Positions 1,025 through 48,187 of a stretch of 64,000 bases of DNA are shown here, one piece after another. The notes under the pieces are model-generated. The model was not told the origin of the DNA. It saw only the letters and a list, made by a program, of their open reading frames with translations, and searched no databases. The number at the start of each line of letters is the position of its first letter. The stretch's first letter is position 1. The stretch comes from Gemmatimonadales bacterium (GTDB lineage Bacteria > Gemmatimonadota > Gemmatimonadetes > Palauibacterales > Palauibacteraceae): assembly GCA_009838765.1 (NCBI GenBank), contig VXQX01000077.1:1-64000 (forward strand). Direction: 5' to 3'. Position numbers and translations under genes: made by a program.

Positions 1025-1060
1025 TCGCGGAAGGGCGCACGCCCTCCCGCGAGGACCCCA

Positions 1061-1089: not shown

Positions 1090-1141
1090 TGTCGCGCGAG
1101 GGGCCCGAGCATCCCGCCGGGAAACGACGAAGATGCGGAGG

Positions 1142-7132: not shown

Positions 7133-7148
7133 CGGCCCGCCCTCCGCC

Positions 7149-8381: not shown

Positions 8382-8426
8382 CGGCAGGAGCCGCGCCGCG
8401 TTCGAGCGGGGGTGCGGCGCCCGACG

Positions 8427-12020: not shown

Positions 12021-12026
12021 GTCGGA

Positions 12027-18197: not shown

Positions 18198-18210
18198 GAC
18201 GGCGTCGCGC

Positions 18211-18519: not shown

Positions 18520-18574
18520 TCGTTCGCTCCATGTCTCCCGGCGCCGACCGGCCCGGCGCGGCCAGGTGTCGACG

Positions 18575-19189: not shown

Positions 19190-19232
19190 TATCGTCTCTT
19201 CCCTTCCCCTGCGCTGCTGGTTCGATCGATGG

Positions 19233-20999: not shown

Positions 21000-21014
21000 A
21001 TCAGCCTTTCTCGA

Positions 21015-21776: not shown

Positions 21777-22637
21777 TTACTGGGTGCGCTCCACCCGAAT
21801 GCGGTTCGTGCCGTGCTCGAGGACGAGCGCGTCGCCCATGGGGACGTCGGCGCCCATCATCTCGCCGCTGTAGTCGAACGAGGCCATGGCCGTCCCGCCC
21901 GCAGTGACGGTCACGCTCGCCGTCATGGTGCCGAACTCCTCGTGCCACGCCGTCATCGTGTAATCGCCGGCCGGCACGTTGGCGATCGAGTAGCTCCCGT
22001 CGGCGCCCGTCACCGCGAAGTACGGGTGGTCGACGACACCGATGTACGCCTGCATCCAGCCGTGCACGTCGCAGCGCACCGGCACCATCACCTCTGCCAC
22101 CTGGAAGCGCTGCGTGCTCGTGATCCCCGCCCGCGGCTGGCTGATGTTGAAGCCACGGTTCTCGGTCGGGGTGGCGTTGATGTTGTGGAGCAGGTTGTCG
22201 CTGTTCGAGATCTCGATGTCCTGACCACTCTGCACGCCGAGCACGTGCGGCGTGTAGCGGCAGTTCACCTGGTCGAGTTCCGCGGCGCCGGACGCCGCCG
22301 GCGCGCCGGAGACGCCCTCGCTCAGGTAGACGAACACGTTGGCGAGGCCGCCGTTGGACACGAGGACGTTCTGGGCCATGGGCCCGTCCGCGCCGTAGCC
22401 GGCGGCGCAATCCGCCTCGGCCGACATGTCGATGGCCTCCATCGTCGGGACCATCCCGCCGAAGTTGGCCATACCCGAGATCGTCCCCACCGTGGACGGA
22501 TCCACCGCAGCGGCAGCCGGCGCCGCCTCGCCGGCGTCGTCCGCCGCACCTTCGGACGATCCGCCACCGCCGCCACAGGCGGCCATCGCCACGACGGCCA
22601 GCAGGGCGGCCGAGCGGTTCCAGAAATGCGATCGCAT
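21777..22637 (-). CDS. Cupredoxin-like lipoprotein
   Basis: 286 residues. The lipoprotein signal ends in VVAMAAC, followed by a glycine/alanine-rich linker. The main domain resembles blue-copper proteins: ISNSDNLLHNINA gives a His, and VRCDVHGWM gives Cys, His and Met in the right order. A small carboxypeptidase-regulatory-like beta domain follows (GADGSYSIANVPAGDY). Probably a membrane-anchored periplasmic electron carrier between the cytochromes c and CuA. Start at ATG 22637 has a good ribosome site (GGAGGT). An earlier start is possible but adds no plausible signal. Confidence 0.8.
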   Translation of the reverse strand: MRSHFWNRSAALLAVVAMAACGGGGGSSEGAADDAGEAAPAAAAVDPSTVGTISGMANFGGMVPTMEAIDMSAEADCAAGYGADGPMAQNVLVSNGGLANVFVYLSEGVSGAPAASGAAELDQVNCRYTPHVLGVQSGQDIEISNSDNLLHNINATPTENRGFNISQPRAGITSTQRFQVAEVMVPVRCDVHGWMQAYIGVVDHPYFAVTGADGSYSIANVPAGDYTMTAWHEEFGTMTASVTVTAGGTAMASFDYSGEMMGADVPMGDALVLEHGTNRIRVERTQ

Positions 22638-22699: not shown

Positions 22700-24262
22700 T
22701 CATCCATCCCTCCGACGGTCCTGGGCCCGGCGCACGAGAACGAGACCGAAGGCCCCCGTCAAGAGCATGGCCAGCAGGGGCGTCACGACGACCGTGCTGG
22801 ATGCCGGAGGTTCGAGCAGAATGTAGTACCACGTGCTTACGGAACTGCGCTTTCCGACCTCGGCGCTGGACCCGTCCCACGCCTGGAACGCGATGGGCGT
22901 CGGGGTGCCCTCGGCGAAGTCCAGGCCGTCGCTTTCGATTTCGATCGAGCGGCGGAGGTAGAGCGTCCAGCGCCCCTCCTCCCACGTCGCCTCTCCGGCT
23001 ACCGGGTCCTCCGCGAGCGGTTCGACGGAGTCGAGGCCGCGGCCGCGCCCCGCTCCGACGCCGGTCTCCGAATCCCACGTCCACAGGTAGACCGGCTCGC
23101 GGGCGTCGCCCATCAGGAAGTACGGCCTGTCCGTGCCCTCCGGCGGTTCGAAGGGGAACTGCAGGAGCACCGCGTCCGGGGGCCGCGAGGTCGGCGCGCC
23201 GACGCTGTCGAGCGCGATGGGTTCCGCGCCGTCCAGGTCGAGCGCGGTCGTGATCTTGTTCTGCCACTCGTCCCAGTTCGGGTCCGGGCTGTTCGATGGG
23301 TCGTTCCACTGCACGCGCAGGGCGATGTCGTTTCCATCGTGGAGCCCCTGCACCCAGAGCCCGTCGACCGCCGGCGCGAAGTTGCGCGGCAGCTGCACGA
23401 CCTGGCCGGACAGCGGGAAGTAGAAGGCCTCGACGCCCGCCCAGGCCTCCTCGCCGCCGTCGGCCGGGAGCCCGCCCTCGGCGCGTCCCACGCGGATCAC
23501 GTCGCGTAGCGGCGGCATCTCGCGCGGCCCCAGCGAGGCGAGGTAGTGCGCCAGTTGCCAGACCTCGTCGGGCGAGACGACGCCCGAGTTCATGGCGTCG
23601 ATGGCCGACGGCATCGGCGTGCCGTCCAGTCCGGTCAGCATGCGGGTATGCATGTCCTCGACGCTGCTGCCGCCGTTCAGGACCCATGCCTCCGTGAGGT
23701 CGGCGGCGCGAATGGGGAGGCCGCGCCAGTCCTCCAGCGTCGGCGCCGAAGTCCCGTCGCCGCGCCCCGAGAGGCCGTGGCACTCCTCGCACAGCATCGT
23801 CAGGTACGCCGCCGCCCCTGCCTCGACCGCGGCGGGACCGCCGCCGGGATCGGAGCCGAAGTCCAGCGGCTCCGGGGCCGGACCCTGGCCGAAGAACCTC
23901 GAGAAGCTCTTCAGGTAGACGATGAGGTCGTCGATCTCCCCGTCCGTGAGGTTGGGCCAGCCCGGCATCGTCGTACCCGGGAGCCCGTTCTCGATCGCGA
24001 ACCGGATGTCCGCGTCCGTGGGGAGCTGCCCGCTCCCGGTCGTCCGGATCTGGTAGAGCGCCTGCGTGAAATCGCGCGGCCGCGGCAGCATCGACGCGGC
24101 GGCCGAGCCATCCCCCTGCCCGGTTTCGCCGTGACACTCCGCGCACCAGCGATCGTACACGACCTTGCCCGCGGCGGCCGCGTCTTCCTGTCCCGCGAGT
24201 GCGGACGGCGTGCCCGCGAAGAGGACGAGGAGCACGATTCCCGTTCCGCGCGGCGCCCTCAT
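22700..24262 (-). CDS. Dihaem cytochrome c with ethylbenzene-dehydrogenase-type haem b domain
   Basis: 520 residues, exported and anchored by a C-terminal helix (VTPLLAMLLTGAFGLVLV). Two cytochrome c domains have CAECH and CEECH with axial Met candidates in TMPGWPNLT and TPMPSAI. From about residue 265 comes a domain like the gamma subunits of DMSO-reductase-family enzymes (EB_dh): FAPAVDGLWVQGLHDG, YFLMGDA with a possible Met ligand, and GKRSSVSTWYYILLE with a possible Lys ligand. Such domains often bind haem b. It would pass electrons in the periplasm. ATG 24262 overlaps the preceding stop. Confidence 0.82.
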   Translation of the reverse strand: MRAPRGTGIVLLVLFAGTPSALAGQEDAAAAGKVVYDRWCAECHGETGQGDGSAAASMLPRPRDFTQALYQIRTTGSGQLPTDADIRFAIENGLPGTTMPGWPNLTDGEIDDLIVYLKSFSRFFGQGPAPEPLDFGSDPGGGPAAVEAGAAAYLTMLCEECHGLSGRGDGTSAPTLEDWRGLPIRAADLTEAWVLNGGSSVEDMHTRMLTGLDGTPMPSAIDAMNSGVVSPDEVWQLAHYLASLGPREMPPLRDVIRVGRAEGGLPADGGEEAWAGVEAFYFPLSGQVVQLPRNFAPAVDGLWVQGLHDGNDIALRVQWNDPSNSPDPNWDEWQNKITTALDLDGAEPIALDSVGAPTSRPPDAVLLQFPFEPPEGTDRPYFLMGDAREPVYLWTWDSETGVGAGRGRGLDSVEPLAEDPVAGEATWEEGRWTLYLRRSIEIESDGLDFAEGTPTPIAFQAWDGSSAEVGKRSSVSTWYYILLEPPASSTVVVTPLLAMLLTGAFGLVLVRRAQDRRRDG

Positions 24263-25050
24263 TCGTGCCCCCCTTCCTCTTCCCAGGTGCGCGGCGGGAA
24301 CCCCGTCTGGTCGTAGAGATAGAGGATCACCGCCCAGATCTCGTCCTGTTCGAGGATCGTCTCCCAGGCCGGCATCGCCGAGTCCCACGGCGTCCCTTCG
24401 CGCGGAAGGCCGGGGCCGCCCTTGACGATGCGCCAGAACACGTAGCTCTCCGTGAGCTGGGGCAGGTTGCCCGAACTCGTGAAGTCGGCGGGGACCGGGT
24501 TGAAGGCCGGCGCGTAGTGGCCCTGGCCGTCGAGCAGATCGCCGTGGCAGGGCACGCAGTTTCGCACGTAGATCCGTTTCCCGACCGCCAGGTGCTCCTC
24601 CATGGAGCCTTCCTCGCGCAGCGGATTCTCGAGCCCCGTCAGCTCGATCGTCTCCCCGCGGAAGGTGAGCTGGTTCGGCGGCGCCGGGTGTACGGCCCGC
24701 AGCGTGGCCGGTGCGGCGTAGCTCGGCTTCACGCGCTCGTAGGCGAGCCAGCCGATGAGGACCGGGAAGGCGACCATGAGGATGCCGCGCACCGTCCGCC
24801 GGTCAGGCTGCACCATCGTCGCGCGGATCGGCTCGCGGAAGCGCTGCCACCGGTCCTCGTCCGCGCTCATGTAGAGGAGGACGCCGACGAGCACGATCAG
24901 CATGTACTCCACGATGACCGAACTCGGGACCGGCGCGCTCGCCACGCCGATCACCGGGAGGACGTAGCCGATCACGTACTCGAACGCGACGTAGGACGCC
25001 ACGACGACGATCGCGCCCTGCCAGAACGGGTGGGACAGGTAACGTTTCAT
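24259..25050 (-). CDS. Membrane-anchored monohaem cytochrome c
   Basis: 263 residues. Three N-terminal helices (VVVASYVAFEYVIG, VEYMLIVLVGVLLYM, ILMVAFPVLIGWLAY), then a periplasmic cytochrome c domain with CVPCHG and a candidate axial Met in SAMPAWETIL. It is coupled by ATGA overlaps to the cytochrome genes on either side. Probably a dedicated electron carrier of the bd-like or aa3 oxidase. Confidence 0.85.
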   Translation of the reverse strand: MKRYLSHPFWQGAIVVVASYVAFEYVIGYVLPVIGVASAPVPSSVIVEYMLIVLVGVLLYMSADEDRWQRFREPIRATMVQPDRRTVRGILMVAFPVLIGWLAYERVKPSYAAPATLRAVHPAPPNQLTFRGETIELTGLENPLREEGSMEEHLAVGKRIYVRNCVPCHGDLLDGQGHYAPAFNPVPADFTSSGNLPQLTESYVFWRIVKGGPGLPREGTPWDSAMPAWETILEQDEIWAVILYLYDQTGFPPRTWEEEGGHE

Positions 25051-25883
25051 CGGCTACCTCCCACGCTGTCGGGCGGGACTTCCGCCGCATCGCCGGGAGC
25101 CTCCGCGCCGCCTCCCGCGCCTCCCACGAAGAAGTCCACCAGCACGTCGAGTTCCACCGGTGACATGAGATCGCCGAAGATCGTCGGCATCGTTCCGGCG
25201 AAGGTCGAGTATTCCTCGTTGATCGTCGCCATCGGATCCACGATCCCCTCGAGGACGAAAGCGGGATCCTGTCCCCGCAGTTCCTCGAAGGGGGGGGCGA
25301 CCATGCCGCCCTCTCCGCCGAGCGCGTGGCAGGCGAGGCAACCCTGGGCCGTAATCAGCGCAACGGCGTCGACCTGGCTCAGGTCGGTGACGGCGACGGG
25401 CGGCGGTGCGGACGCGGCCGCGTCGTCGGCCGCCAGCGCCGCGGCGAAGTCGTCCGCGTTCACCGTGATCTCACCGCCTTGCGATTGCAGGAAGGCGACG
25501 AGCGTCCACAGCTCGGCCTGCGATGAAACGATGCTCTGATCGATCATGATGGGGTCGAAGCCCTCCACGATGTAGGCCGTCGGGTTGACCAGAGATTCCC
25601 ACAGATAGTCCTTGCAGCTTTGCCCCGGGACGCGCGTCGCGCACACGCCGCCCACCACCCCGAGGAGGTCCGGAGCGCGCGTTCCGAGCCCGTGGCACGC
25701 CGTGCAGCCGCCCGCCCCCGCGTAGATCTCCTCGCCGATCGCCGCCAGCTCCTCGGGCGGCATGTCCGCGTTGAGCACGATCTCCCGAGGGACCGCCGAC
25801 TGCACCTGCGGAATCACGTTGGCCACGAAGGTGAACACCGCCAGCGTCGCCACGACCGTGAACAGGATCTTCAGGTTCGTCAT
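25047..25883 (-). CDS. Membrane-anchored dihaem cytochrome c
   Basis: 278 residues. N-terminal helix (ILFTVVATLAVFTFVANVI) anchors two cytochrome c domains with CTACHGLG and CLACHALG. Candidate Met ligands are in FDPIMIDQ and AGTMPTIFGDLM. First of three overlapping cytochrome genes; 79 bases separate it from the bd-like oxidase subunit gene. With the next two proteins the set offers five haem c groups. Confidence 0.85.
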   Translation of the reverse strand: MTNLKILFTVVATLAVFTFVANVIPQVQSAVPREIVLNADMPPEELAAIGEEIYAGAGGCTACHGLGTRAPDLLGVVGGVCATRVPGQSCKDYLWESLVNPTAYIVEGFDPIMIDQSIVSSQAELWTLVAFLQSQGGEITVNADDFAAALAADDAAASAPPPVAVTDLSQVDAVALITAQGCLACHALGGEGGMVAPPFEELRGQDPAFVLEGIVDPMATINEEYSTFAGTMPTIFGDLMSPVELDVLVDFFVGGAGGGAEAPGDAAEVPPDSVGGSR

Positions 25884-25962: not shown

Positions 25963-27783
25963 CTAGTCCACGTCGCCCAGGGAGGGCGCCGGCATGGGGT
26001 CCCCGAGCGCGGCGCGCCCCTCCTGTCCAGCCTTCACCTTCGCCTCGGCTTCCTGGTACACGGAGCGTTCGGCCAGGCCACCGAGCCAGAAGATGAGGCC
26101 GACGAGCCCGAAGAAGATGAGCACGCAGATGCTGATGATCGTCGCCGCCGGCCCGAGTGCCGGGGTGAACGCCTGCTCGCTCGTGTCCCGGATCACCTCA
26201 TAGACGTGCCAGTGCTGCCGGATCCCGCTGCGCGCGAAGCCCATCAGCCCCATGAGCCACGTAAACGTGACCGCGAGGATGAGGAGCGCGTACTGGGACC
26301 GGTCCGGCATCCGCCCCCACCGGATCTCGCCTCGGGATCTGGCGCCCCGCAGCATCGCCATGTCGATGCCGATGACGAACAGGATCGTCGCCAGGACCGC
26401 GAGCACCTGGTAGACGGAGAAGCCGATCCGCACGATCGCCGTCACGAAATAGCCGTACACGCCGTAGAACACGACGATGACGGCGCACAGCGCGAAGGCC
26501 GCCCCCTGCAGCATGGTCCCCGCGCGCGCCCACGGCACCACGGGATCCTTGTTCGCCCTCCGGTACATGAGGAAGGAGAGGAACGTCGTCAGGATCATCA
26601 GGTTGACGGCCGTGTTCTTCGCGCTCATCACGCCGAGCACCTGCAGGAACGGGTGCCGGATCCCTCCCATGGCCGCGATCTCGTCCCGGTCCGCAATCAT
26701 CGTATTCGGCGTGGCCCACACGATGACCCCGAGCACGAGCACGAGCAGCATCCACTTGATGTAGGGCTGAAACCGTTCCGCCCCGGGAATCCGCCCCATC
26801 CCGATCCAAAGATAGTAGTTGCCCGCGAGGAAGAGGATGCCGATGAGGAAGGCCTGGATGATCCAGAGCCAACTCATGAAGCCGCCCATCATCGTGATGC
26901 CCATCTGCTGGCTGAACTCGTAGATCTCCCGTCCGAGCCAGTAGCCGGCGAAGGGGAGGACGATGAGCGCGCCGATCGCGATCAGGTTGCCGGTGTAGCC
27001 CATCCAGTCGTAGTGGGCGCGTTCCTCATCCGTCTTGCTCGTGAGGAAGCGGTACGCCGCGTAGGCGCCGACGATGGCGCCGCCGAACACCACGTTCGCC
27101 AGCAGCCGGTGGATGTTGATCGGCATCCAGGTCGCGTTGTTGATGGCGCTCCACAGCTGGACGGTCTGCGGGGCCGTATCCGCCGTGAGTCCCTCCGGCG
27201 GGCTCATCATGTAGGTGAGCCAGCCGTTCGCGATGAACATGACGATCGTGCCCCAGACGTTGAGCATGATCCCCAGGCACCAGTGGGCCTTCTTCGCCGC
27301 GCCCTTCTTCCACGCGTCCCACCCGTAGTAGTAGAGGTAGAGCGTGAAGGATTCGAGGAAGAAGAGGCCCGCGTACACCCACATCGACGGAGCGAAGATC
27401 GCCGTAAGATACGCCCAGAAGCGCGGGTAGAGCGTCGAGAGGAAGAAGACGAGGATCGCGCCCCAGATCGCGGTCGCGCTGTAGGCCACGAGGAGGAGGC
27501 GGGTGAATTCCTTCGCGAGCTTGTCGTACTTCTCGTCCCCCCCGAACATCCCGATCGCCTCGATGACGACGGCGAACATGGGCACGCCGAGCACGAAGGC
27601 GGCAAACAGCAGGTGGAGCTGGGCCGCGATCCAGACCGCGCCGCGGCGGTCGAGCCCGAGGAAGTTGAACTCTCCGTAGTCGGGTCCCGGCGCTTGCGCG
27701 AGGAGCGGGAGGGCGACCGCCAGGACGAGGACGGCGAGCAGTACGCCGCGGGTCGCGACGCCACGGGTAATCCAGCGCTTCAT
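25963..27783 (-). CDS. Cytochrome bd-like oxidase subunit I
   Basis: 606 residues, longer than E. coli CydA (about 520), with around 14 helices. An N-terminal signal-like helix precedes the CydA core. LHLLFAAFVLGVP holds the His matching the haem b595 ligand. INIHRLLANVVFGG holds the probable b558 His. IRQHWHVYEVIRDTSEQAF aligns with the GRQPW...Y..LRT segment near the quinol site, with P changed to H. No CydB gene is visible. Cytochromes c follow directly, so the electron donor may not be quinol. ATG 27783 overlaps the stop of the radical SAM gene. Confidence 0.85.
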   Translation of the reverse strand: MKRWITRGVATRGVLLAVLVLAVALPLLAQAPGPDYGEFNFLGLDRRGAVWIAAQLHLLFAAFVLGVPMFAVVIEAIGMFGGDEKYDKLAKEFTRLLLVAYSATAIWGAILVFFLSTLYPRFWAYLTAIFAPSMWVYAGLFFLESFTLYLYYYGWDAWKKGAAKKAHWCLGIMLNVWGTIVMFIANGWLTYMMSPPEGLTADTAPQTVQLWSAINNATWMPINIHRLLANVVFGGAIVGAYAAYRFLTSKTDEERAHYDWMGYTGNLIAIGALIVLPFAGYWLGREIYEFSQQMGITMMGGFMSWLWIIQAFLIGILFLAGNYYLWIGMGRIPGAERFQPYIKWMLLVLVLGVIVWATPNTMIADRDEIAAMGGIRHPFLQVLGVMSAKNTAVNLMILTTFLSFLMYRRANKDPVVPWARAGTMLQGAAFALCAVIVVFYGVYGYFVTAIVRIGFSVYQVLAVLATILFVIGIDMAMLRGARSRGEIRWGRMPDRSQYALLILAVTFTWLMGLMGFARSGIRQHWHVYEVIRDTSEQAFTPALGPAATIISICVLIFFGLVGLIFWLGGLAERSVYQEAEAKVKAGQEGRAALGDPMPAPSLGDVD

Positions 27784-29192
27784 CGCTTTTCCCCCCGTCC
27801 CGCGCTCCGCCGACTGCGGGCGAAGAAGGGTATCCGTTTCGAGAAGTCCACCGGCATGGCCCGGCGGACCTCGGTCATCACGTCGACCGTCACCTCTGCG
27901 TGCCCGCGCTCGCGCGCGAACTTCTCCACACGTTCCGAAACCACGCCGCGCACGAAGCTGGGAATGGCGTTCAGCCGGGTGGCGGCCTCGGCGCTCCACG
28001 GCAGCTCCCGCTCGACCGCCGAGCCGTAGGTGACCGGCTGCCGCGGCTCGATCGCGGGCGCGATGCCGGGTGCCGGCTCGTAGGCGCAGGAAGAATCGGG
28101 ACCGAGCAGGTCTCCGTCCACCGCGTAGGCGCGGGCGCGGCAGCCGCCGCACAGGGCGCGGTACTCGCAGCGCCCGCACTTGCCGCCCGGTTCGCCCTCG
28201 CGCAGCAGGCGGAAGACGGTCGCCTCGCGCCAGATCTCGCCGAAGGACGCCTCGGCGAGGTCGCCGGCCACCTCCGGCATGTACGGGCACGGCGTCACCT
28301 TGCCCTCGGGCGTGATGCGGCAGTACTGGACGCCGCAGGGGCAGCGCGTCCGGTAGTTCAGGAGCGGCGAGTCCGGGTCCCGTTCGTACACGTGCCGCAT
28401 GAGTTGCGGCTGGCACTTGGAGCGGATCATCAGCCGCCCGCGGTAGTCTCGCTGGAGTTCGGCCAGCCGGGCCACGATCTCGTCGTTCTCCTCGGGGGCG
28501 AGTCCGCGCATTCCCTCTCCCCTGCCCGTCTCGACGAGGAAGTAGACGTTGAGGCAGACCGCGCCCTTCGCGTCCGCCCAGGCGGCGATCGCATCGAGTT
28601 CGTCCCGGTTCCCGCGCGTGACGGTGAACTGGATGAGGAAGTCGAGCCGGTGCTCGGCCAGCCGATCGACCGCGGCGAGTGTGTCCTCGAGCGCGCCCTC
28701 GCCGTGCCGGAAGCGGTCGTGATAGCGCGAGTCGAGGGAGTCGACGCTGAGGGCAACGCCCTGCACGCCGGCCGCCTTGAGCGAGGCGATGCGTTCATCG
28801 GTGAGCCCGGTGCCGTTCGTGCCCACGGTCACTGTGGCGCCGCGCTCGGCGGCGTAGGCGGCGATCTCCTCGAGGTCGGAGCGCACGAGCGGCTCCCCCC
28901 CGCTGAGGATGAGGAGCGGCGACGGACTCGTTTCGAGGATCTGGTCGATGACGCGGAAGCAGGCCGCGGTATCGAGTTCGTCCCCGTCCGCGTGCCACGA
29001 TCCGGCGGAGATGTAGCAGTGCGCGCAGGCGAGGTTGCAGCGGCGCGTAAGGTTCCAGGCGACCACGTGCGGGATCGCGACATCGGGTTCGGCCCGCGGA
29101 GACCCGGCGGCGGAGGCGCCGTCCCAGAGCGAACCGGGCACGGCCGGGCTCCGGTTCGCGACGGCTTCCGCGGCCAGCGGGGCCCCGGTCAC
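27780..29192 (-). CDS. Radical SAM/SPASM protein with C-terminal PCP_red-like module
   Basis: 470 residues. The radical SAM cluster motif CNLACAHC is at residues 52-59, with GGEPL following. The SPASM region has Cys-rich CPCGVQYC, GKVTPCPY and CGRCEYRALCGGC, binding further Fe-S clusters, as in haem d1 (NirJ), AhbD and peptide-modifying enzymes. The last 70 residues (PWSAEAATRLNAIPSFVRGV onwards) match the module found at the C-terminus of dark protochlorophyllide reductase subunit B. It is coupled to the bd-like oxidase gene by ATGA. I infer a maturation or cofactor-tailoring role; the substrate is unknown. Confidence 0.85.
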   Translation of the reverse strand: MTGAPLAAEAVANRSPAVPGSLWDGASAAGSPRAEPDVAIPHVVAWNLTRRCNLACAHCYISAGSWHADGDELDTAACFRVIDQILETSPSPLLILSGGEPLVRSDLEEIAAYAAERGATVTVGTNGTGLTDERIASLKAAGVQGVALSVDSLDSRYHDRFRHGEGALEDTLAAVDRLAEHRLDFLIQFTVTRGNRDELDAIAAWADAKGAVCLNVYFLVETGRGEGMRGLAPEENDEIVARLAELQRDYRGRLMIRSKCQPQLMRHVYERDPDSPLLNYRTRCPCGVQYCRITPEGKVTPCPYMPEVAGDLAEASFGEIWREATVFRLLREGEPGGKCGRCEYRALCGGCRARAYAVDGDLLGPDSSCAYEPAPGIAPAIEPRQPVTYGSAVERELPWSAEAATRLNAIPSFVRGVVSERVEKFARERGHAEVTVDVMTEVRRAMPVDFSKRIPFFARSRRSAGRGEKR

Positions 29193-31450
29193 TTCGCGCG
29201 TGACCCCTGCTCCGAAGCGGGACGGACGTCCGCTCCCGACTCTTCGCCCAGTTCGGTGCGCGCGAACTTCTCGACCGCCGCGCGGGCATCGTCGGGCGAC
29301 ACCATCTTGAAGTCGACGGGACAGTCCGCCGCCTGCTGCTCGATGTCGCGGATCGGACAGCGCGTTACGCCGGAAGCCTTCGCTTCCTCGATGAAGCGCT
29401 TCATCTCCTCGCTCATGCCGTCGACGCCGGCAGCTTCGGCCCGCGCCTGCTTCGCCTTCAACTCGTTGAACATCACGAGCATCGTGTCGAGGTCGAACTC
29501 GTCGGCCGCGATCATCGCGTCCTTGTTCTCGTCCATCACGACGGTCGTCACGCGCCACATGCCCTGGTCGCGGGCGAAGCGCTCCACCGTGTTCCGAGCG
29601 AGGGGGCGGGCGATCAGCGGCACGCGCCCCAGCCGCTCGAACGCCTCGTGCGTCCACACGATCGGGTCGGCGTCCGTGCGGTCGCGGGGGATCTGGTTGT
29701 CCGTGACCGGACACTTCGCCATCACGGGGAGGGGGGCCTCGAAGGCGTCCGCGTCGCTCGTCTCCACGACGGTGCGCTTCATCGCCTCACCCGCCTTCAC
29801 CTCCGCGAGGGCGAGCTCCTCGGCGTCACCGATCCCCATCACGAGCTGCATGTGGGTCGGAAGGAGCTTCTTGATCGCCTCGTCCAGGCGCTCGTTCGTC
29901 ACCACGGGCAACTGGTCGCGGTTCCAGAGTTCCGTCTTCTCCGCCTTCCCCCGCCCGTTGGCGGCCTGTCCGACCTCGGCGATCGACGGGGCCGCGCCGG
30001 TCTCCAGCGCGTCGCGCGCCACCTTCGCGGTGCCGCTCGCCCCATTGCCGGCCGCGGCGTTTCCATCGGCCGGCGGCGACGCCGCCCGGTACTGCTTCTC
30101 GTCCTTCGGGTTCGGGACGAAGGCGGCCGCGTAACGGCTCCCGGGGCCATAGTGTTCGAGGACGAACTCCTCGACGGCCTTGCGGGCGATCCCCAGGGCG
30201 AAGGGCGGCACGCGCAGGATCCTCACCTCCGCCTCGGGTGCCCACTCGAGCCCGGCCTCGCCGTCCTCCTCGATCCAGGGGATCTCCTCCGGCCGGACGT
30301 TCCCGGTCCCGAGGAGGAGGATGTTCGTATCCGCGAGCGAGACGAGGTTGTCGGCCTGCGAGCCGATGTCCGTGCCCTCGATGCGGTGCGAGCCGTGGCG
30401 GGCCACGACGATGAGGGACGGATCGATCTCCTCGGCCCACTTGAGGAGCACGTCGAACGGCTTCCCGACCAGCACCTGGGTCTCGATGTCGACCTCGGGA
30501 TACTCGCTCGCCATCACCTCGGCCCGCTTGATGTTCGCCTTGCAGAGGCGGAGGAGGCCCTTGTCGATGATGTTGTTGTGGAGCTCTTCCTGCTCCTCGA
30601 ACTTGAACACCTTCGAGGCCTGGACGGAGAGCACGTCCTTGATGTTGTGGAAGACGACGTGGTGGTACTGCACGTCGAAGGCGCTTGCGATGTAGACCGT
30701 GGCGCCGTATTCGCGCGCCATTTCGAGCGCGATCCTCAGGCCCTTGTAGGCGTAGGCCGACCCGTCCACGCCGACGAGCCACTTGCCGCCCTCCAGCGGC
30801 CGGTCGTCGCGAACGATGAGCGCGTCCTTTTCGATCCCGCGGAGCGCGCGCGCCACGACGCCGCCGAGGCGGCTCCGTTCCTGCCTCCCGAGACCGTGGG
30901 CGCCGATGGTGACGAGGTCGTAGTCGCGGCCGGAGGTACCCGCGAGCTTGTCCTCCTGCTCTTCGTCCTCGGCCACGAGCCGGCCGTTCTCGCCCAGCTT
31001 GACGTCCGCCCGCTGCTTTTCGCTGCCGTCGTAGTTGTGGGCGATGTTGGGGTCGAAGCCGATGAGGCTCGGGAGACGTCCGCCGCCGCGGTTCGCCTCG
31101 TTGATGATCTCCTCGTAGTTGATGCCCTCGAGGAGCTGCCGCGTGAGGGTCACCCCGGCTTCGGAGCAGCGGCGGTGGAGCTGGTCCAGGAAGCTGTCCG
31201 AGATGAGTTGCAGCCCCTTCTCGATCAGCTTGTCGTGGATCTTGCGCTGCCTGCGGATCTCCGCCGGCTCCTGGAACTGGGCCGGGAGCCCGATCTCGAG
31301 CTGGCGGAACCGGATGTCGTGGAGGCGCGCGGCGTAGACGTGAGAGCCGGTGATGCGGCCCCCGGAGCGAGCGCAGAGTTCGATGGCTCGGTCCACGGCC
31401 CAGTCCGACTCGCGCGAGTTATCGACCGGGACGAATACCTCTCGATACAT
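29189..31450 (-). CDS. Tandem universal-stress protein with PCP_red-like modules
   Basis: 753 residues. Two Usp domains: one starts at MYREVFVPVDNSRESDWAVD and closes with TIGAHGLGRQERSR; the second starts at KWLVGVDGSAYAYKGL and closes with VARHGSHRIEGTD. The C-terminal 300 residues hold PCP_red-like stretches (WTHEAFERLGRVPLIARPLA, VERFARDQG) and isolated Cys-Pro motifs (CPVTDNQ, CPIRD, DCPVDF). The Usp part may bind ATP. It overlaps the radical SAM gene by GTGA. ATG 31450 is chosen because the 12 codons upstream are not Usp-like. Exact task unknown. Confidence 0.82.
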   Translation of the reverse strand: MYREVFVPVDNSRESDWAVDRAIELCARSGGRITGSHVYAARLHDIRFRQLEIGLPAQFQEPAEIRRQRKIHDKLIEKGLQLISDSFLDQLHRRCSEAGVTLTRQLLEGINYEEIINEANRGGGRLPSLIGFDPNIAHNYDGSEKQRADVKLGENGRLVAEDEEQEDKLAGTSGRDYDLVTIGAHGLGRQERSRLGGVVARALRGIEKDALIVRDDRPLEGGKWLVGVDGSAYAYKGLRIALEMAREYGATVYIASAFDVQYHHVVFHNIKDVLSVQASKVFKFEEQEELHNNIIDKGLLRLCKANIKRAEVMASEYPEVDIETQVLVGKPFDVLLKWAEEIDPSLIVVARHGSHRIEGTDIGSQADNLVSLADTNILLLGTGNVRPEEIPWIEEDGEAGLEWAPEAEVRILRVPPFALGIARKAVEEFVLEHYGPGSRYAAAFVPNPKDEKQYRAASPPADGNAAAGNGASGTAKVARDALETGAAPSIAEVGQAANGRGKAEKTELWNRDQLPVVTNERLDEAIKKLLPTHMQLVMGIGDAEELALAEVKAGEAMKRTVVETSDADAFEAPLPVMAKCPVTDNQIPRDRTDADPIVWTHEAFERLGRVPLIARPLARNTVERFARDQGMWRVTTVVMDENKDAMIAADEFDLDTMLVMFNELKAKQARAEAAGVDGMSEEMKRFIEEAKASGVTRCPIRDIEQQAADCPVDFKMVSPDDARAAVEKFARTELGEESGADVRPASEQGSRAK

Positions 31451-31636
31451 GGCGCTCCGTTGGACGGCATGCTGCGGCCGGTTCACGCTGCTCGCACCAG
31501 CCTCGCCCGGGTGCGAAGCCCGGATGTACGCAGCTCGCGAAAGTCGGCCACGGACGAGGAATTCGGCGATGCTGGTTCAAGGCCTTCGGGGTCGCCCGGA
31601 GGTCCGGACCCCCGCTTATGGGCCAAGAAGTTGCGG

Positions 31637-31656
31637 TTGACCACGGGGAAAGTCAA
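31637..31656. promoter_or_regulatory. Possible operator: TTGAC-N10-GTCAA inverted repeat
   Basis: A dyad in the 213-base gap upstream of the Usp gene and downstream of the ABC permease gene. The half-sites recall CRP/FNR-family operators, but the 10-base spacing is longer than the usual 4-6. It could control the oxidase-maturation genes. Evidence is the dyad and its position only. Confidence 0.25.
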
Positions 31657-31663
31657 ACGCGGT

Positions 31664-32371
31664 CTAGGGAGTTCGCGGCCAGCGGAGGCGGCGGCTCCAA
31701 TCCGAGGCGAAAACGGCGGCCCCGAAGGTCGCGCCGGCCGCAACGAGAAGGCTTGGCAGCCAGACGGAAGCCTCCATGGGCATCCCGCTGGTGCCGGCCG
31801 TGAGCGCGGCCCGCAGCGGCGTGTACGGATTCCACTCGGCGACGAGGGAGGTCCAGCCGGGAACGGGGGTCCGGAAGAAGCCGGCGAGGTGAAGGAGGAG
31901 AAGGGAAAGCGCCGCGGAAGCGAGGGCCGCTTCGGCGAGCGAGCGCACCGCGGCCGCCACGAGGGGACCCAGCAGGTTCGCGAACCACAGCGTCGCGAGG
32001 ACCGACAGGAGGACAACGGGACCCGCGCCTGCTCCGCCGGCCGACCACAGGAGGACGAGGGCGGCGGGCGCAAGCTGGAGCGCGTCGATCGTCGTGCCGG
32101 CGAGCGTGCGCTCGAGGAACCAGCGGGGCGCGGAGTAGCCGGTGCGGAGGATCTCATCGAGCCAGCCGTCTCGGGCGTCGCGCACAGCCGGAATGGCTGA
32201 ACCGAAAGCTCCGAAAAAGACGATGAACACGCCGAAGACTGCGACCCGGTGCGGCGCCGCGGCTGCGCTGAGGGCGACAGGCGTGAGGAGGAGGAGCGGG
32301 ACCGCGACGTTCCACAGAAACAACCGCCGCCGCCGGAGGGCGGTGCGCCACGCCAGACGCCAGATCGTCAC
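31664..32371 (-). CDS. ABC-2 type transporter permease
   Basis: 235 residues, six helices, resembling CcmB-like or ABC-2 permeases. ATG 32371 overlaps the stop of the ATPase gene, so they form one exporter. Substrate is not visible from sequence. Its place among Fe-S, cytochrome and oxidase genes hints at haem, copper or cofactor export, by analogy with CcmAB; this is inference. Confidence 0.75.
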   Translation of the reverse strand: MTIWRLAWRTALRRRRLFLWNVAVPLLLLTPVALSAAAAPHRVAVFGVFIVFFGAFGSAIPAVRDARDGWLDEILRTGYSAPRWFLERTLAGTTIDALQLAPAALVLLWSAGGAGAGPVVLLSVLATLWFANLLGPLVAAAVRSLAEAALASAALSLLLLHLAGFFRTPVPGWTSLVAEWNPYTPLRAALTAGTSGMPMEASVWLPSLLVAAGATFGAAVFASDWSRRLRWPRTP

Positions 32372-33315
32372 CGGGCGCGCCCTTCCAGACGCCGGCCCGT
32401 GAGCGTCGCGAACGCGTCCGCAAGATCGGGTTCCCGGACATCGACGGAGGCGACGGAGGCGCCGCCGCGCAGGACCCAGGCCAGCGTCTCCGGGAGGGCC
32501 CGGCTCGGGTCCTCGACCCTAAGGATCACCGCGCTCTCGTCCCAGGCCGACGCGCGCACCGCCGGCGGCGCGGGGCCGAGTGTGTCGGGATCGGGACTCT
32601 TCCCGGCGGCAAACCGGATCTCGACGCGCGGACGGGCGCCGACGCGCTCCAGGAGCCGGGCCGGGGTATCCGCCACCGCGCAGCGGCCATCGACGATGAA
32701 CGCGACGCGGTCGCAGTGCGCCGCGGCGAAGGCGGGATCATGGGCGGACAGCACGGAGGTCTTCCTGGCCGCGCGGTGGTCGGCGAGGGCTTCGGCGAAG
32801 GCCTCCCGCCCGCCGGGGTCGAGCCCGGCCAGCGGTTCGTCGAGGAGGAGGAGGGGGGCCGCGGTACCGAACGCGGTCGCGAGGGCAAGCCGTCTCCGCA
32901 TACCGCTCGAGTAGGTGCCGGCGGGGCGGTCCGCGTCGGCCTCGAGCCCGAAGCGCGCGAGCCAGGCGTTGGCCGTAGCACGCGCCTCGCCGGACCCCGC
33001 GCCGTGGAGTTCGAGCAGGATGGCCGCGTTTTCACGCCCGCTGAGCCACGTGCGGAGGGCGGGCCGGTCGGTGGCGAGCCAGCGCTTTCGGGCATCGTCG
33101 ACGCCGGCGGTCCGTCGCATCCCCGGAACGCCGTCGCCGCCGAGGAGGCGGAGGAAGGTCGATTTTCCGGATCCGTTCGGGCCGAGGAGCGCGAGGCACT
33201 CTCCCTCGCGGACTTCGAGCGAGAGGTCCTTGAGGGCGGGACTCCCATCGGGGTAGCGGTAGGCGACCGCCTCCGCCGTCACCAGCAGCGGCTTCGCCCC
33301 TGCGCCGGGGCTCAC
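32368..33315 (-). CDS. ABC transporter ATPase
   Basis: 315 residues. Walker A GPNGSGKST, signature YSSGMRRRLALA (the variant common in ABC-2 exporters), Walker B LLLLDEPLAGLDP and a switch His in SAHDP. A C-terminal extension of about 110 residues follows. GTG 33315 overlaps the ferredoxin stop (GTGA). Works with the permease encoded next. Confidence 0.92.
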   Translation of the reverse strand: MSPGAGAKPLLVTAEAVAYRYPDGSPALKDLSLEVREGECLALLGPNGSGKSTFLRLLGGDGVPGMRRTAGVDDARKRWLATDRPALRTWLSGRENAAILLELHGAGSGEARATANAWLARFGLEADADRPAGTYSSGMRRRLALATAFGTAAPLLLLDEPLAGLDPGGREAFAEALADHRAARKTSVLSAHDPAFAAAHCDRVAFIVDGRCAVADTPARLLERVGARPRVEIRFAAGKSPDPDTLGPAPPAVRASAWDESAVILRVEDPSRALPETLAWVLRGGASVASVDVREPDLADAFATLTGRRLEGRAR

Positions 33316-33605
33316 GGAACGATCTCGATCCCGTCTTCCAGGACGGTGATCGCGTCGACCGGGCAGGACGCGCACGCCTCGATGAAACGCTGCCGCGAGG
33401 CGTGTTCGGGTCCGGTGAAGACCGCCACTCCATCCTCATCGAGATCGAAGGCCTCCGGCGCCTCCTCAATACAGTCCCCGAAGCCGACGCACAGGTCACG
33501 GTCGATGACGGCGCGAACCCCGTGGACCTCCCGCTCCACGGACGGGTCCGGCGTCCCCGTCCCCTCACCCGCATCTCCCACGCCTGCGCCGCCGTCCGTC
33601 ACCAC
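33312..33605 (-). CDS. Single-cluster ferredoxin
   Basis: 97 residues. CVGFGDC and CASCPVDAI give a Cx5C ... Cx2CP pattern typical of [3Fe-4S] or [4Fe-4S] monocluster ferredoxins, with the usual APEAFDLDEDG in between. The first 25 residues are an acidic, flexible leader. Probably an electron donor to a neighbour such as the radical SAM enzyme. GTG 33605 start, 3 bases from the zinc-ribbon gene. Confidence 0.9.
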   Translation of the reverse strand: MVTDGGAGVGDAGEGTGTPDPSVEREVHGVRAVIDRDLCVGFGDCIEEAPEAFDLDEDGVAVFTGPEHASRQRFIEACASCPVDAITVLEDGIEIVP

Positions 33606-33608
33606 CGG

Positions 33609-34052
33609 CTACATGCCTTCCAGCCCGAGATCGGAGCGGGCACGATCCATGACGGCGGGCGTCATTTCCTCGATCCCGCGCTCCCGGGCGTATTCGTTGT
33701 AGATCTTCTTCACCATCCCCCGCACGAAGGAGGGTACGTGGCCGAGCCGCTCGACCGCATCCACGTTCCAGCGCACGGGTCCGGGGTTCGTCAACGGCGC
33801 TGCGGGCAAGGCTTCGTCGCGCGGGTCCTCCACGCCGGCGCGAATGCCCTCGAAGTTCTCGTTCGGGACGGTCCGACCTCCCACCTTCACGCCGAGCGAA
33901 CTCACGAGTTGCGTCTCCATGGGGTTGGCGAGCATCGCCGTCTTCCGCCCGCAGGCGGGGCACCTGAAGACGGCGGCCATTGTGCCGTCGCCGGGTACGG
34001 CCCGCTCGTCGAAGGCCATCTGCCGGTCGCACTCCACGCAGAGGAACTTCAT
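33609..34052 (-). CDS. Zinc-ribbon protein with PCP_red-like module
   Basis: 147 residues. The N-terminal ribbon uses CVECDR and CPACGR. After a linker comes a PCP_red-like unit (VRWNVDAVERLGHVPSFVRG) very close to those in the radical SAM and Usp proteins. ATG 34052 overlaps the stop of the Mrp-type ATPase gene. Looks like a small adaptor binding metal or a tetrapyrrole; function not established. Confidence 0.8.
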   Translation of the reverse strand: MKFLCVECDRQMAFDERAVPGDGTMAAVFRCPACGRKTAMLANPMETQLVSSLGVKVGGRTVPNENFEGIRAGVEDPRDEALPAAPLTNPGPVRWNVDAVERLGHVPSFVRGMVKKIYNEYARERGIEEMTPAVMDRARSDLGLEGM

Positions 34053-34939
34053 CGCGTCGCGGGCGCCGCGCGGAGCACGTCGACCATCGTCCGGACGGCT
34101 TCCGCTGTGGGCCCTCCACCAGCCAGCCATTCCTCAAGCCGCCCCTCGTCCGCCGCGGCCCCCAACGCCGCGTCGAAGGGGAGTCGCGCGAGCAGCGGGG
34201 CCCGAAAGCGCTCCGCCAGCTCGGCCCCGGCGTTTCCGGCGTGCAGCGGCGCGAGCCCCCCGCAGGCGTCGCAGCGAACCCCCGACAGGTTCTCCACGAG
34301 TCCCGGCATGGGGAGGCCGCGTCTCCGGGCGAGATCGAGCGAGCGGGCCACGGCATCGCGGGAAGCCGCGCTCGGGATGGTGACCGCGATGATGCCCGCC
34401 AGTCCGGGGACGAGCGCGTGAAGCTCGGCGAGGCGCTGGGTGCCAGGTGGCAGGTCCACGAGCAGCACATCCAGCTCTCCCCACGCGACATCCGACAAAA
34501 ATTCGCGCAGAGCCCCCCGCTCCTGGGCGCCGCGCCACACGAAACCGGCGTCGGCGGGCTCGCGCCACGTGAGGGCGCGGTCCGGCTCCATGAGAAACGC
34601 CATCGACATGACGCGGACCCCGGCGCGCGAGGAGGGCGGCGCGAATCCGTTCCGGGATTCGGCGAGGACTCCGGGCTCGATGCCGAGGAGGCGCGGCACG
34701 CTGGGGCCGTTCAGGTCGGCGTCGACCAGGCCCACGCGATCCCCGCGGCGGGCGAGCGCGGTCGCGAGGAGGCCGGAGACGAGGCTCTTCCCCACGCCGC
34801 CCTTGCCGCTCATCACCGCGATGACCCGGGCGACGGAAGCGAGCCGCACGGACACGCGCTCGTCCCCCGCCGCGATCTGGTCGGGGAGATCCGAACGCAG
34901 TTCGTCCACTTCGTGGTAGGTGCGAAATCCGGAACTCAT
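34049..34939 (-). CDS. Mrp/NBP35-type P-loop ATPase
   Basis: 296 residues. Deviant Walker A GKGGVGKS, switch II VDLPPGTQ and a CDACGG pair fit the Mrp/ApbC family that carries Fe-S clusters for apoproteins. ATG 34939 is the first gene of the run and sits next to the 300-base spacer with repeat copy 1. It could load clusters onto the ferredoxin and radical SAM protein below. Confidence 0.88.
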   Translation of the reverse strand: MSSGFRTYHEVDELRSDLPDQIAAGDERVSVRLASVARVIAVMSGKGGVGKSLVSGLLATALARRGDRVGLVDADLNGPSVPRLLGIEPGVLAESRNGFAPPSSRAGVRVMSMAFLMEPDRALTWREPADAGFVWRGAQERGALREFLSDVAWGELDVLLVDLPPGTQRLAELHALVPGLAGIIAVTIPSAASRDAVARSLDLARRRGLPMPGLVENLSGVRCDACGGLAPLHAGNAGAELAERFRAPLLARLPFDAALGAAADEGRLEEWLAGGGPTAEAVRTMVDVLRAAPATR

Positions 34940-35480: not shown

Positions 35481-36106
35481 GGCGCGAGGACCGGGCGGAC
35501 GGAGGCCGGCCGGTTGTACTCTATTTCGCGGCCGCCGTGTTCCTGTTCATCCTCGTCGTCGTCGTTGCCGGCTCGTTCACGAGGCCCGACCCCGTCACCT
35601 TCGTTCCAACGCCCGTCGCCCTGCGCGCCCCCGTGGACCGGTTCGTCGTGGACACGGTCACCGTCGATGCCCGGGACGGCTCGCGATGGGTCTACTTCGA
35701 TTTCGACCGGGGGAGCGCGGTCGCCGGCCCGCTCGCCGGCTGGGATCTCGCGCTCAACCGGTATCACGTCGTCGTGAACGGCGGCGCCGGATACCCCGGG
35801 GCCGGCGGAGCGATCGCCATCGGCGCGCCGTGGGAAACCGTGACCGAGGCCCCGGCGTCCGGTTACGCGACGACGGAGGGCGCGCTGGAGGATGGCCCGG
35901 CGACGCCCGGACTCGAGCGCTGGTACCGGTACGGGTTCTTCTCCCACCTCCTCGAACCGAAGGACGAGACGTACGTGATCCGGACGGCGGAGGGTGGCTA
36001 CGCGAAGCTGAGGATCCTGAGCTATTACTGCCCGCAGGCGACGCCCGGATGCGTGACCCTCATGTACGGCTTTCAGGGAGACGGTTCGCGGCGCCTCACG
36101 GACTGA
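35477..36106 (+). CDS. HmuY-like haem-binding protein
   Basis: 209 residues. An N-terminal helix (VVLYFAAAVFLFILVVVVAG) anchors a beta-rich domain. WVYFDFDRG, GWDLALNRYHVVVNGG and the closing LRILSYYC are the hallmarks of the HmuY family, known mainly from haem scavenging in Bacteroidota. Two Cys near the C-terminus may pair. The tail runs 11 bases into the 3' end of convergent hemC. Haem binding is inferred from family. Confidence 0.75.
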   Translation: MRREDRADGGRPVVLYFAAAVFLFILVVVVAGSFTRPDPVTFVPTPVALRAPVDRFVVDTVTVDARDGSRWVYFDFDRGSAVAGPLAGWDLALNRYHVVVNGGAGYPGAGGAIAIGAPWETVTEAPASGYATTEGALEDGPATPGLERWYRYGFFSHLLEPKDETYVIRTAEGGYAKLRILSYYCPQATPGCVTLMYGFQGDGSRRLTD

Positions 36107-37073
36107 GCCGGCGTGCCCGCTCCACGAGGCCGGACGCCCCCGCCTCGACCAACTGTTCCGCCAGCCGGCGGCCGAGTGCGCCGGGCGAAGCGCGAGACCC
36201 CGTACCGGCCGCTTCGACCGGGGGGCCACCGTCCACGTCGTAGACGGCCGCGCGGAGCAGGAGGTCCTCCGCCCGCAGTGACGCGCGGGCGGCGATGGGA
36301 ACCCGGCATCCACCTTCGAGCGCCGCGAGCAGTGCCCGCTCGGCGGTCGTCTCCGCCCGGGCGGCCGGATCGTCGAGCGCCCCGATGCGCGCGGCCGCTC
36401 CGTCCGGCCCGTCGCGACACTGGAGCCCGAGCGCACCTTGACCGGGGGCCGGTAGCCAGTCCTCATCGAGGACGTGGGCGCCGGGGGGCCACACGCCGAG
36501 CCGCCGGAGCCCGGCCGCCGCCAGGACCAGCGCCTCGAAGCGGCCGTCCTCCAGCTTGTGGAGCCGCGTGTCGACATTCCCGCGGATCGGCCGCGGATCG
36601 AGGTCGGTCCGGGCGGCGCGCAACTGAGCGGCGCGGCGCAACGACGACGTGCCGACGCGCGCGCCGGAGGGGAGGCGTCGCAGAAGGTCGCGTCCATCCG
36701 CGTCCCGGGGCGCGGAGTCCGGCGGATTCCGAACCGCGAGATTCCGAACCACGAGCACGTCCCGGGGATCTTCGCGGGTCGGGACGGCGCCCAGCATCAA
36801 CCCGTCGGGGAGGTCCGCCGGCAGATCCTTCAGGGAGTGCACCGCGACATCGATGTCTCCTTCCCGGAGCGAGCGTTCGAGGTCTTCGGTGAACAGCCCC
36901 TTCCCTCCGATCTCCGGAAGCGGCGTCGCGAGATCGCGGTCCCCGGCAGTGGTGATGAACCGGTATTCAACGGGCAGCTCGGGCCAGCGTTCGCGCAGCC
37001 GTTCGCCCACCCAGGCGGCCTGCGCCCGGGAGAGCGGTGACCGCCGCGCCCCGACCACGAGCGGCGCATTCAC
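36096..37073 (-). CDS. hemC: Hydroxymethylbilane synthase
   Basis: 325 residues. Polymerises four porphobilinogens to hydroxymethylbilane in tetrapyrrole synthesis. ARRSPLSRAQAAWV, FTEDLERSLREGDIDVAVHS and LKDLPADLP give the substrate-binding region. EGGCRVP supplies the Cys that holds the dipyrromethane cofactor. Coupled to the acyl-CoA ligase gene upstream by a four-base overlap. Confidence 0.96.
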   Translation of the reverse strand: MNAPLVVGARRSPLSRAQAAWVGERLRERWPELPVEYRFITTAGDRDLATPLPEIGGKGLFTEDLERSLREGDIDVAVHSLKDLPADLPDGLMLGAVPTREDPRDVLVVRNLAVRNPPDSAPRDADGRDLLRRLPSGARVGTSSLRRAAQLRAARTDLDPRPIRGNVDTRLHKLEDGRFEALVLAAAGLRRLGVWPPGAHVLDEDWLPAPGQGALGLQCRDGPDGAAARIGALDDPAARAETTAERALLAALEGGCRVPIAARASLRAEDLLLRAAVYDVDGGPPVEAAGTGSRASPGALGRRLAEQLVEAGASGLVERARRLSP

Positions 37074-43881: not shown

Positions 43882-43884
43882 GGC

Positions 43885-48122: not shown

Positions 48123-48187
48123 GACGGCGACCGCCGTCGCGCACAGGAGCGTGAGGAGCAGCGCCGTGACGACCTGGACCTCCAGGG

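Follow-up and report, generated by a model that had tools for sequence, protein, structure and literature searches.

A gene set of PCP_red and radical SAM proteins linked to a CydA-like respiratory protein, and its possible role in tetrapyrrole maturation

The gene cluster and its PCP_red modules

The window analysed here is a stretch of 64,000 nucleotides from a Gemmatimonadales bacterium (GenBank assembly GCA_009838765.1, contig VXQX01000077.1, positions 1 to 64,000). Its minus strand carries a gene cluster that is transcribed in the order Mrp-type Fe-S ATPase, zinc-ribbon-like protein with a PCP_red module, ferredoxin, ABC transporter ATPase, ABC-2 type permease, tandem Usp protein with PCP_red, radical S-adenosylmethionine (SAM)/SPASM protein with PCP_red, and CydA-like membrane protein (Table 1). 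The set of PCP_red, radical SAM, Usp and Mrp genes is linked to the CydA-like complex by gene order and by co-presence across genomes, a link that we state with high confidence. An earlier note on this DNA, made from the sequence alone, had described the same order with the ferredoxin, the Mrp ATPase and the ABC pair, and our domain calls agree with it. It had also reported that the radical SAM gene is coupled to the bd-like (CydA-like) gene by ATGA; this overlap of reading frames is present in the window sequence, and the Usp and radical SAM frames additionally overlap by GTGA.

All three proteins to which the earlier note had assigned PCP_red-like modules exceeded the Pfam gathering score of PF08369 (32.5 bits; Table 1). 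A scan of the genome at E ≤ 0.001 gave four matches, all on the minus strand within the cluster, and no further match anywhere. The matches in the radical SAM, zinc-ribbon-like and Usp proteins scored 61.5, 49.9 and 45.2 bits, respectively, and a second stretch of the Usp protein, which is degenerate, scored 22.4 bits and failed the gathering score. The note's count of three modules is thereby corrected to four, the fourth being degenerate; exactly four matches were found in 60 of the 77 genomes possessing both PCP_red and the CydA-like gene (counted by eye). Concerning the protein described as a zinc-ribbon protein with PCP_red, the PCP_red part stands, and the match to the ribbon is weak, PF13717 scoring 18.2 bits against a cut-off of 30.3.

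A known carrier of PCP_red is BchB of dark protochlorophyllide reductase. The C-terminus of the window's radical SAM protein matched a BchB chain (2xdq_B, E 2.3e-08) and a PCP_red structure (2kru_A, E 7.1e-05). The C-terminal PCP_red domain is common to this protein and BchB/ChlB, but in our cluster the module sits on radical SAM, Usp and zinc-ribbon-like proteins, and no nitrogenase-like domain was matched. Across 202 distinct modules, the best conserved columns were W (99%), P (97%), A (96% and 85%) and R (83% and 82%), followed by F and G (79%), T (75%) and E (74%). Columns of His, Cys or Tyr stayed at or below 29% in these modules, and Met reached 48% at most, which makes it unlikely that PCP_red ligates iron; we therefore rejected a haem-ligating role of the module.

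In other genomes PCP_red is joined to other catalytic domains. It is N-terminally fused to a HemQ-like Chlor_dismutase protein in two Nitrospina-type genomes, G305 and G306 (L228:8082-9044 and L232:6161-7108; 194 bits with Chlor_dismutase; with HemQ_actino, 135-146 bits against a cut-off of 235), and to NIR_SIR/4Fe-4S reductase-like proteins in two sulphate-reducer genomes, Brocadia and a planctomycete (L203:841-1641, L204:1495-2292, L236:7988-8872 and L242:8333-9208); Desulfosarcina and Nitrospina are among the hosts of these two kinds of fusion. These HemQ-like and sirohaem-reductase-like proteins share the module with those of our cluster and belong to tetrapyrrole-enzyme families, but they have other catalytic domains and occur in other genomes. 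The common thread of the fusions is mostly tetrapyrrole enzymes, and PCP_red may serve to dock a tetrapyrrole or to hand it over. The pattern is not pure, as the module was also found on an FMN-reductase-like protein (L216, 27 bits, below the cut-off). In two further proteins, L239:7386-8387 and L229:8989-9822, Pfam finds solely PCP_red modules, four or three of them.

Table 1 Genes of the cluster and its surroundings in the window
Feature	Position	Strand	Evidence and remarks
HemC, porphobilinogen deaminase (upstream neighbour)	36096..37073	-	PF01379 234 bits
Mrp/ApbC-type Fe-S carrier P-loop ATPase	34049..34939	-	PF10609 206 bits; start ATG at 34939
Zinc-ribbon-like protein with PCP_red	33609..34052	-	PF08369 47.4 bits; module 33636-33770
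Single-cluster ferredoxin	33312..33605 (start uncertain)	-	PF13370 43.2 bits
ABC transporter ATPase	32368..33288 (start uncertain)	-	PF00005 77.6 bits
ABC-2 type permease	31664..32371	-	PF01061 45 bits
Tandem Usp protein with PCP_red	29189..31450	-	PF00582 106 bits; PF08369 53.2 bits, two stretches: full 29522-29656, degenerate 30155-30244
Radical SAM/SPASM protein with C-terminal PCP_red	27780..29192	-	PF04055 94 bits; PF13186 32.6 bits; PF08369 56.1 bits; module 27864-27998
CydA-like membrane protein, 606 aa	25963..27783	-	PF01654 81.4 bits over residues 52-299
Dihaem c-type cytochrome	25047..25883	-	PF13442/PF00034; two CxxCH
Monohaem c-type cytochrome	24259..25050	-	PF13442; one CxxCH
Cytochrome c plus ethylbenzene-dehydrogenase-type (EB_dh) protein, like 'alternative NxrC'	22700..24304 (start uncertain)	-	PF00034, two stretches; PF09459 48.2 bits (cut-off 33.3)
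Carboxypeptidase-regulatory-like, cupredoxin-like (by eye) protein	21777..22412 (start uncertain)	-	PF13620 37.7 bits (cut-off 32.3)
Cytochrome c oxidase genes (subunits 2, 1, 3, 4, CtaB-like)	17277..21686	-	named by eye from translations

The best NCBIfam match of the Mrp ATPase was MrpORP, at 211 bits below the cut-off of 450. The ABC ATPase remained under the respective cut-offs of drrA (133 bits) and CcmA (91.5 bits), and the ABC pair was detected in some loci only; we therefore rejected its identification as CcmAB and do not claim that it exports haem. HemC was also considered as a part of the unit. It lies upstream in the window and in L113 and L114 (family f1), but not in L108 of the same family, nor was it seen in the remaining loci as far as they reach, several being truncated, and we do not count it as conserved. 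Away from the cluster, the window contains a tRNA-Sec (52444-52539) and a SelB elongation factor (57851-59731), i.e. the selenocysteine machinery of this genome, and a run of genes (41853-48511) resembling, by eye, a multi-subunit Na+/H+ antiporter.

Conservation of the set with the CydA-like gene

Of 298 related Gemmatimonadota genomes, 115 had PF08369, 78 had the CydA-like protein (at E ≤ 1e-20) and 86 had the radical SAM protein (at E ≤ 1e-40). The radical SAM match was strong (best E ≤ 1e-100) in 78 genomes; the eight weaker ones, among them G016, which is cut by a contig end, were left out. The CydA-like and strong radical SAM proteins occurred together in 76 genomes, and in all 76 the radical SAM gene lay immediately upstream of the CydA-like gene on the same strand, with a gap of -19 to 236 nucleotides (median 43). 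Only the CydA-like protein was present in G234 and G238, and only the strong radical SAM protein in G159 and G264. PCP_red was present in 77 of the 78 CydA-like genomes.

The gene order was followed in 20 stretches from 19 genomes using jackhmmer locus maps; the profiles of these maps, like those of the maps for other phyla, were grown from the same loci that they annotate. Most stretches kept the order Mrp, zinc-ribbon-like PCP_red, Usp-PCP_red and radical SAM-PCP_red protein, CydA-like protein and three cytochromes; of the exceptions, L095 and L096 (G159) and L097 (G016) carry parts of the set and no CydA-like gene on the stretch, and L098 (G234) lacks the radical SAM gene. The conserved unit extends beyond position 25963 into the three c-type cytochrome genes, the carboxypeptidase-regulatory/cupredoxin-like gene, homologues of which also lie near the CydA-like gene in other phyla, and the cytochrome c oxidase genes, in the same order in most relatives; for the oxidase the comparison concerned COX2 and COX1, which keep their order in most Gemmatimonadota loci. 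The same cluster was carried by two named loci, L126 (BD2-11 clade bacterium) and L127 (Gemmatimonadota bacterium), whose CydA-like proteins are 76% and 88% identical to that of the window.

Co-presence was also evident in Nitrospirota. Of 198 genomes of this phylum, 108 had PF08369 and 84 had the CydA-like family at E ≤ 1e-30; PCP_red occurred in all 84 CydA-like genomes, versus 24 of the 114 without the CydA-like family. At least three CydA-like matches were obtained in 65 genomes, 63 of which had at least eight PCP_red matches. The commonest number of CydA-like matches was four, which is also the number of bd-like oxidases that N. moscoviensis is reported to have (available part of PMC6606698), and the genomes with several CydA-like genes are therefore probably Nitrospirales.

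In other phyla, contigs were scanned with an alignment of the cluster's radical SAM proteins, and the best 80 loci among the matches listed comprised 17 with PCP_red on the radical SAM protein (L116-L132) and 63 plain loci without it. By their titles, the former are from Deltaproteobacteria, an unplaced bacterium, Poribacteria, Anammoxibacter, Brocadia, Nitrospina, Nitrospinaceae, Planctomycetota, Gemmatimonadota, Chromatiales, Hyphomicrobiales, Bacteroidota and Nitrospirae. All 17 genomes were compared with 11 picked from the plain loci. PF08369 was present in 17 of 17 versus 4 of 11. With profile A2 (E < 1e-150), the CydA-like family was detected in 15 of 17 versus 1 of 11 plain AhbD/NirJ2-like genomes; anammox, Nitrospina, Bacteroidota and Poribacteria genomes are among those that combine it with PCP_red. 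The single plain-locus genome with the CydA-like family, G321, has 12 PCP_red matches; four of the remaining ten gave weak CydA-like matches (7e-12 to 5e-16) and six none. The neighbourhoods of Usp-PCP_red with radical SAM-PCP_red and of Mrp with the zinc-ribbon-like PCP_red protein recur in other phyla, Nitrospirota included. In 14 well-known control genomes, PF01654 was found in 10 and PF08369 in 1 (the cyanobacterium Synechococcus), from which we conclude that canonical cytochrome bd is not associated with PCP_red. The earlier note had named two outcomes that would refute its reading, modules failing to match PCP_red and neighbours not conserved with the oxidase elsewhere. Neither occurred: the modules match, and conservation of the neighbours with the CydA-like gene extends to further genomes and phyla.

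Several observations count against a set dedicated to the CydA-like complex. G238 has the CydA-like protein without PCP_red, and L098 (G234) has the CydA-like, Usp-PCP_red, zinc-ribbon-like PCP_red and Mrp genes without the radical SAM gene. Conversely, 38 of the 115 PCP_red-positive Gemmatimonadota genomes and 24 Nitrospirota genomes, 22 of them with a single match, have PCP_red without the CydA-like protein, and G298 and G312 have a PCP_red-radical SAM protein without the CydA-like family. Many of the 38 are probably phototrophs, since the PCP_red protein of L005 (G150) looks by eye like BchB, and L023 (G028) carries the module on a short open frame. In L116 the contig starts inside the first cytochrome gene, so that its CydA-like gene may be cut off. 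Furthermore, genomes related by descent are not independent samples, so that Fisher tests on the co-occurrence counts, which ignore kinship, overstate the association and were not taken as probabilities, and the 17 genomes from other phyla are all titled metagenome-assembled genomes, which makes misbinning possible.

The PCP_red proteins might also be redox or stress regulators that co-occur with the CydA-like gene through a shared lifestyle. Usp domains are named for the stress response, and in the Nitrospirota genome G452 (L288-L291) the PCP_red genes sit on contigs or stretches other than those of the CydA-like genes. The fixed adjacency in Gemmatimonadota, the overlapping frames in the window, the separate clade of the radical SAM proteins (see below) and the adjacency in several phyla make this explanation quite improbable.

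The CydA-like protein and its complex

The CydA-like protein is the only PF01654 protein of its genome, and the match, well above the cut-off of 26.2 bits, is confined to the N-terminal part. Profile alignments to solved cytochrome bd chains likewise covered only the first ~210-290 positions. The AlphaFold (AF2) model (pLDDT 74.5) had cytochrome bd subunit I as its best PDB matches; since the Foldseek comparison with E. coli bd-II (E 5.8e-08) gave a TM score of 0.41 on the query and a root-mean-square deviation of 18.9, the two superpose only in part. In an alignment of 53 CydA-like sequences, several of which are one gene fetched twice, H57, E144, H167, H225 and M386 were invariant. In the profile alignment, H57, E144 and H225 correspond to H19, E99 and H186 of E. 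coli CydA, positions counted among the axial ligands of its three haems. By eye, in a weakly aligned region, M386 may match M393, and the position of Glu445 reads Ser519 beside the invariant R518, so the equivalent of Glu445 appears to be lost. The family also conserves H377 (52 of 53) and H526 (53 of 53), two histidines that we did not see in the four canonical sequences used for comparison. A quinol-binding Q-loop was found neither in the profile-to-PDB alignments, which cover the N-terminal part, nor by eye against these four sequences. The protein shares with CydA of cytochrome bd the N-terminal helical part, the H19, E99 and H186 equivalents and the fold match, but differs in giving no Q-loop match, in the apparent loss of the Glu445 equivalent, in a C-terminal half without PF01654 and in its c-type cytochrome neighbours. 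No CydB partner was recognised among the cluster genes, and no search of the genome for PF02322 was made.

A cluster of a CydA-like protein, two c-type cytochromes and an alternative NxrC has been published for Nitrospira, Nitrospina and anammox bacteria (available parts of PMC6606698 and PMC3578206). The window has the same make-up, with the CydA-like protein, mono- and dihaem cytochromes, the cytochrome c plus EB_dh protein and the cupredoxin-like protein, and its CydA-like/cytochrome c core is this already published cluster. What sets the Gemmatimonadota version apart is that cytochrome c oxidase genes and the PCP_red/radical SAM/Usp/Mrp set adjoin it; neither PCP_red nor a radical SAM protein is mentioned in the available parts of these papers. 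The accessible parts of two newer papers (PMC10839748, PMC12342949) treat the group as OR-N cytochrome bd-like O2 reductases; CydA proteins of the Nitrospina-type phylum are mostly classed as OR-N. The A2 profile found CydA-like genes in two Nitrospina-type genomes (E 5.5e-221 and 8.9e-223), and by resemblance the window protein would be of the OR-N type.

The earlier note had called the protein a bd-like oxidase subunit. Its relation to bd subunit I stands (PF01654 and the fold), but the label 'oxidase' is uncertain because of the missing Q-loop match, the apparent loss of the Glu445 equivalent and the presence of the family in anammox genomes, which speaks against a purely O2-reducing role. 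The canonical oxidase role has already been doubted in print: for the Nitrospina protein, a replaced Q-loop and missing quinol ligands were described and a complex-III-like role was proposed (PMC3578206, available part). The target of the set could accordingly be a quinone/cytochrome c electron-transfer complex and not an O2 reductase, with the maturation set still serving it. Ser519 and the invariant H526 (in the weakly aligned region) and the adjoining cytochrome c oxidase genes in Gemmatimonadota are consistent with such a target, whereas the retained H19, E99 and H186 equivalents and the published classification as O2 reductases argue for oxygen, and a second complex III is not required, as the genome has an apparent alternative complex III. 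We regard the electron-transfer complex as a substantial possibility, somewhat short of an even chance.

We also considered the CydA-like complex as a substitute for complex III, as suggested by the absence of a bc1-type cytochrome b (PF00033) from the genome. This candidate was rejected, because the gene run around an NrfD match on contig C2 of the same genome (L269) reads by eye as the alternative complex III, and the missing bc1 is then no argument. In the 298-genome sample PF00033 occurred in 24 of 78 CydA-like genomes versus 133 of 220 others, a difference confounded by kinship.

The radical SAM protein and the proposed function of the set

The best families of the window's radical SAM protein were NirJ2 (272 bits) and AhbD (267 bits), both below their cut-off of 500. 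Four homologues from other phyla (L116, L123, L131, L132) scored 294-343 bits with NirJ2 and 299-324 bits with AhbD, so that the five PCP_red-bearing proteins tested reach 53-69% of each curated cut-off. Of four plain loci tested, L141 and L162 passed AhbD, L145 passed NirJ2, and L184 fell short at 448 bits. A tree built from 123 core sequences placed the 37 rows with PCP_red in one clade (SH-aLRT 99) apart from the plain rows; these 37 include the truncated L097, whose C-terminus lies off the contig, and L123 and L227, which are one gene. All 36 PCP_red rows compared retain the cysteines of the radical SAM motif (CX3CX2C) together with eight others. Compared with AhbD and NirJ2, these proteins thus have the same radical SAM and SPASM domains and conserved cysteines, and differ in the C-terminal PCP_red module, in their own clade and in scores below the cut-offs.

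Many SPASM enzymes modify peptides or proteins, and two enzymes that act on peptides, PqqE and SkfB, are among the solved relatives found by sequence. The enzyme could hence modify a side chain of a peptide or protein, with the CydA-like protein and a c-type cytochrome as conceivable targets; a match to TIGR04053 (246 bits), a radical SAM/SPASM family of unstated function, would also be compatible with this. We consider it improbable, since NirJ2 and AhbD are the best families, the mycofactocin, WgkB and PqqE maturase families reached only 113-140 bits, and PCP_red is fused elsewhere mostly to tetrapyrrole enzymes.

AhbD and NirJ act on the propionates of iron tetrapyrroles, and AhbD converts coprohaem to haem b (available part of PMC7242693). 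As the clade scores almost equally with AhbD and NirJ2, the set might simply make ordinary haem b locally by AhbD-like coprohaem decarboxylation and deliver it, with no unusual haem involved. However, the window protein is well below the AhbD cut-off, the clade is distinct from the plain rows, and a second route to haem b would be redundant: the genome has an ordinary ferrochelatase, so that plain haem b is available, and set-bearing genomes can have protoporphyrinogen oxidase (HemY) or HemQ-like proteins. We therefore regard local haem b synthesis as unlikely.

Outside Gemmatimonadota, HemY adjoins the set or lies near it in 5 of 24 loci, a number of which are short contigs, versus 2 of 63 plain loci; TIGR00562 was above its cut-off in L116, L130, L295 and L298. 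In L130 (positions 1-12627), from G312, titled as a 'Hyphomicrobiales' genome, the Usp-PCP_red, radical SAM-PCP_red and HemY genes are adjoined by genes for arsenite-oxidase-type molybdopterin and Rieske proteins, a MauG-like cytochrome and a HEAT-repeat protein, and no CydA-like gene was found in G312. On the other side, the HemY of L129 is a truncated piece below the TIGR00562 cut-off, and HemY was found in none of 21 Gemmatimonadota loci and not in the window; these points and the ordinary ferrochelatase count against a special haem pathway.

Taken together, the kinship of the radical SAM clade with AhbD and NirJ2, the HemQ-like and sirohaem-reductase-like fusions and the HemY neighbours suggest that what links the set to the complex is rather likely tetrapyrrole maturation. 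Of the earlier note's view that an unusual tetrapyrrole is made or inserted for the oxidase, the tetrapyrrole role is supported by these same observations, and the unusual product, its insertion and O2 reduction are inferred. On balance, we slightly favour the PCP_red/radical SAM/Usp/Mrp set as a dedicated biogenesis system for the CydA-like membrane cytochrome complex, acting through a modified iron porphyrin. In this system, the ordinary haem pathway would supply the iron porphyrin, the side chains of which would be altered by the radical SAM protein, a relative of AhbD and NirJ2 with its Fe-S cysteines kept, while the Mrp ATPase and the ferredoxin would provide Fe-S clusters and electrons. 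The PCP_red modules would act as docking or hand-over units, by which the tetrapyrrole is exchanged between the enzyme (radical SAM protein), a carrier (Usp protein) and a partner (zinc-ribbon-like protein) and delivered to the CydA-like protein, and the finished complex would exchange electrons, in either direction, with the c-type cytochromes belonging to it. A new haem as the product is a tentative suggestion. Equally tentative is its general form, in which the OR-N/bd-like complexes of Gemmatimonadota, nitrite oxidisers, anammox bacteria and others would carry an undescribed, radical-SAM-modified haem made by a PCP_red pathway fed from ordinary haem synthesis, PCP_red being a general tetrapyrrole hand-over module with BchB as just one user.

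In the open-licence literature we found no paper that ties PCP_red or this radical SAM protein to the bd-like complex; 'radical SAM' is absent from the searched, partly available main texts of PMC6606698 and PMC3578206, and 'protochlorophyllide' from that of PMC3578206. As the set travels with it in nitrite oxidisers, anammox bacteria and others, the respiratory CydA-like protein may carry an undescribed haem. If the complex does need a dedicated tetrapyrrole pathway, the missing biochemistry would become directly testable, the set would tell which genes to add for expressing the complex in other hosts, PCP_red would gain a role beyond chlorophyll synthesis, and the set would serve as a genomic marker for the bd-like complex.

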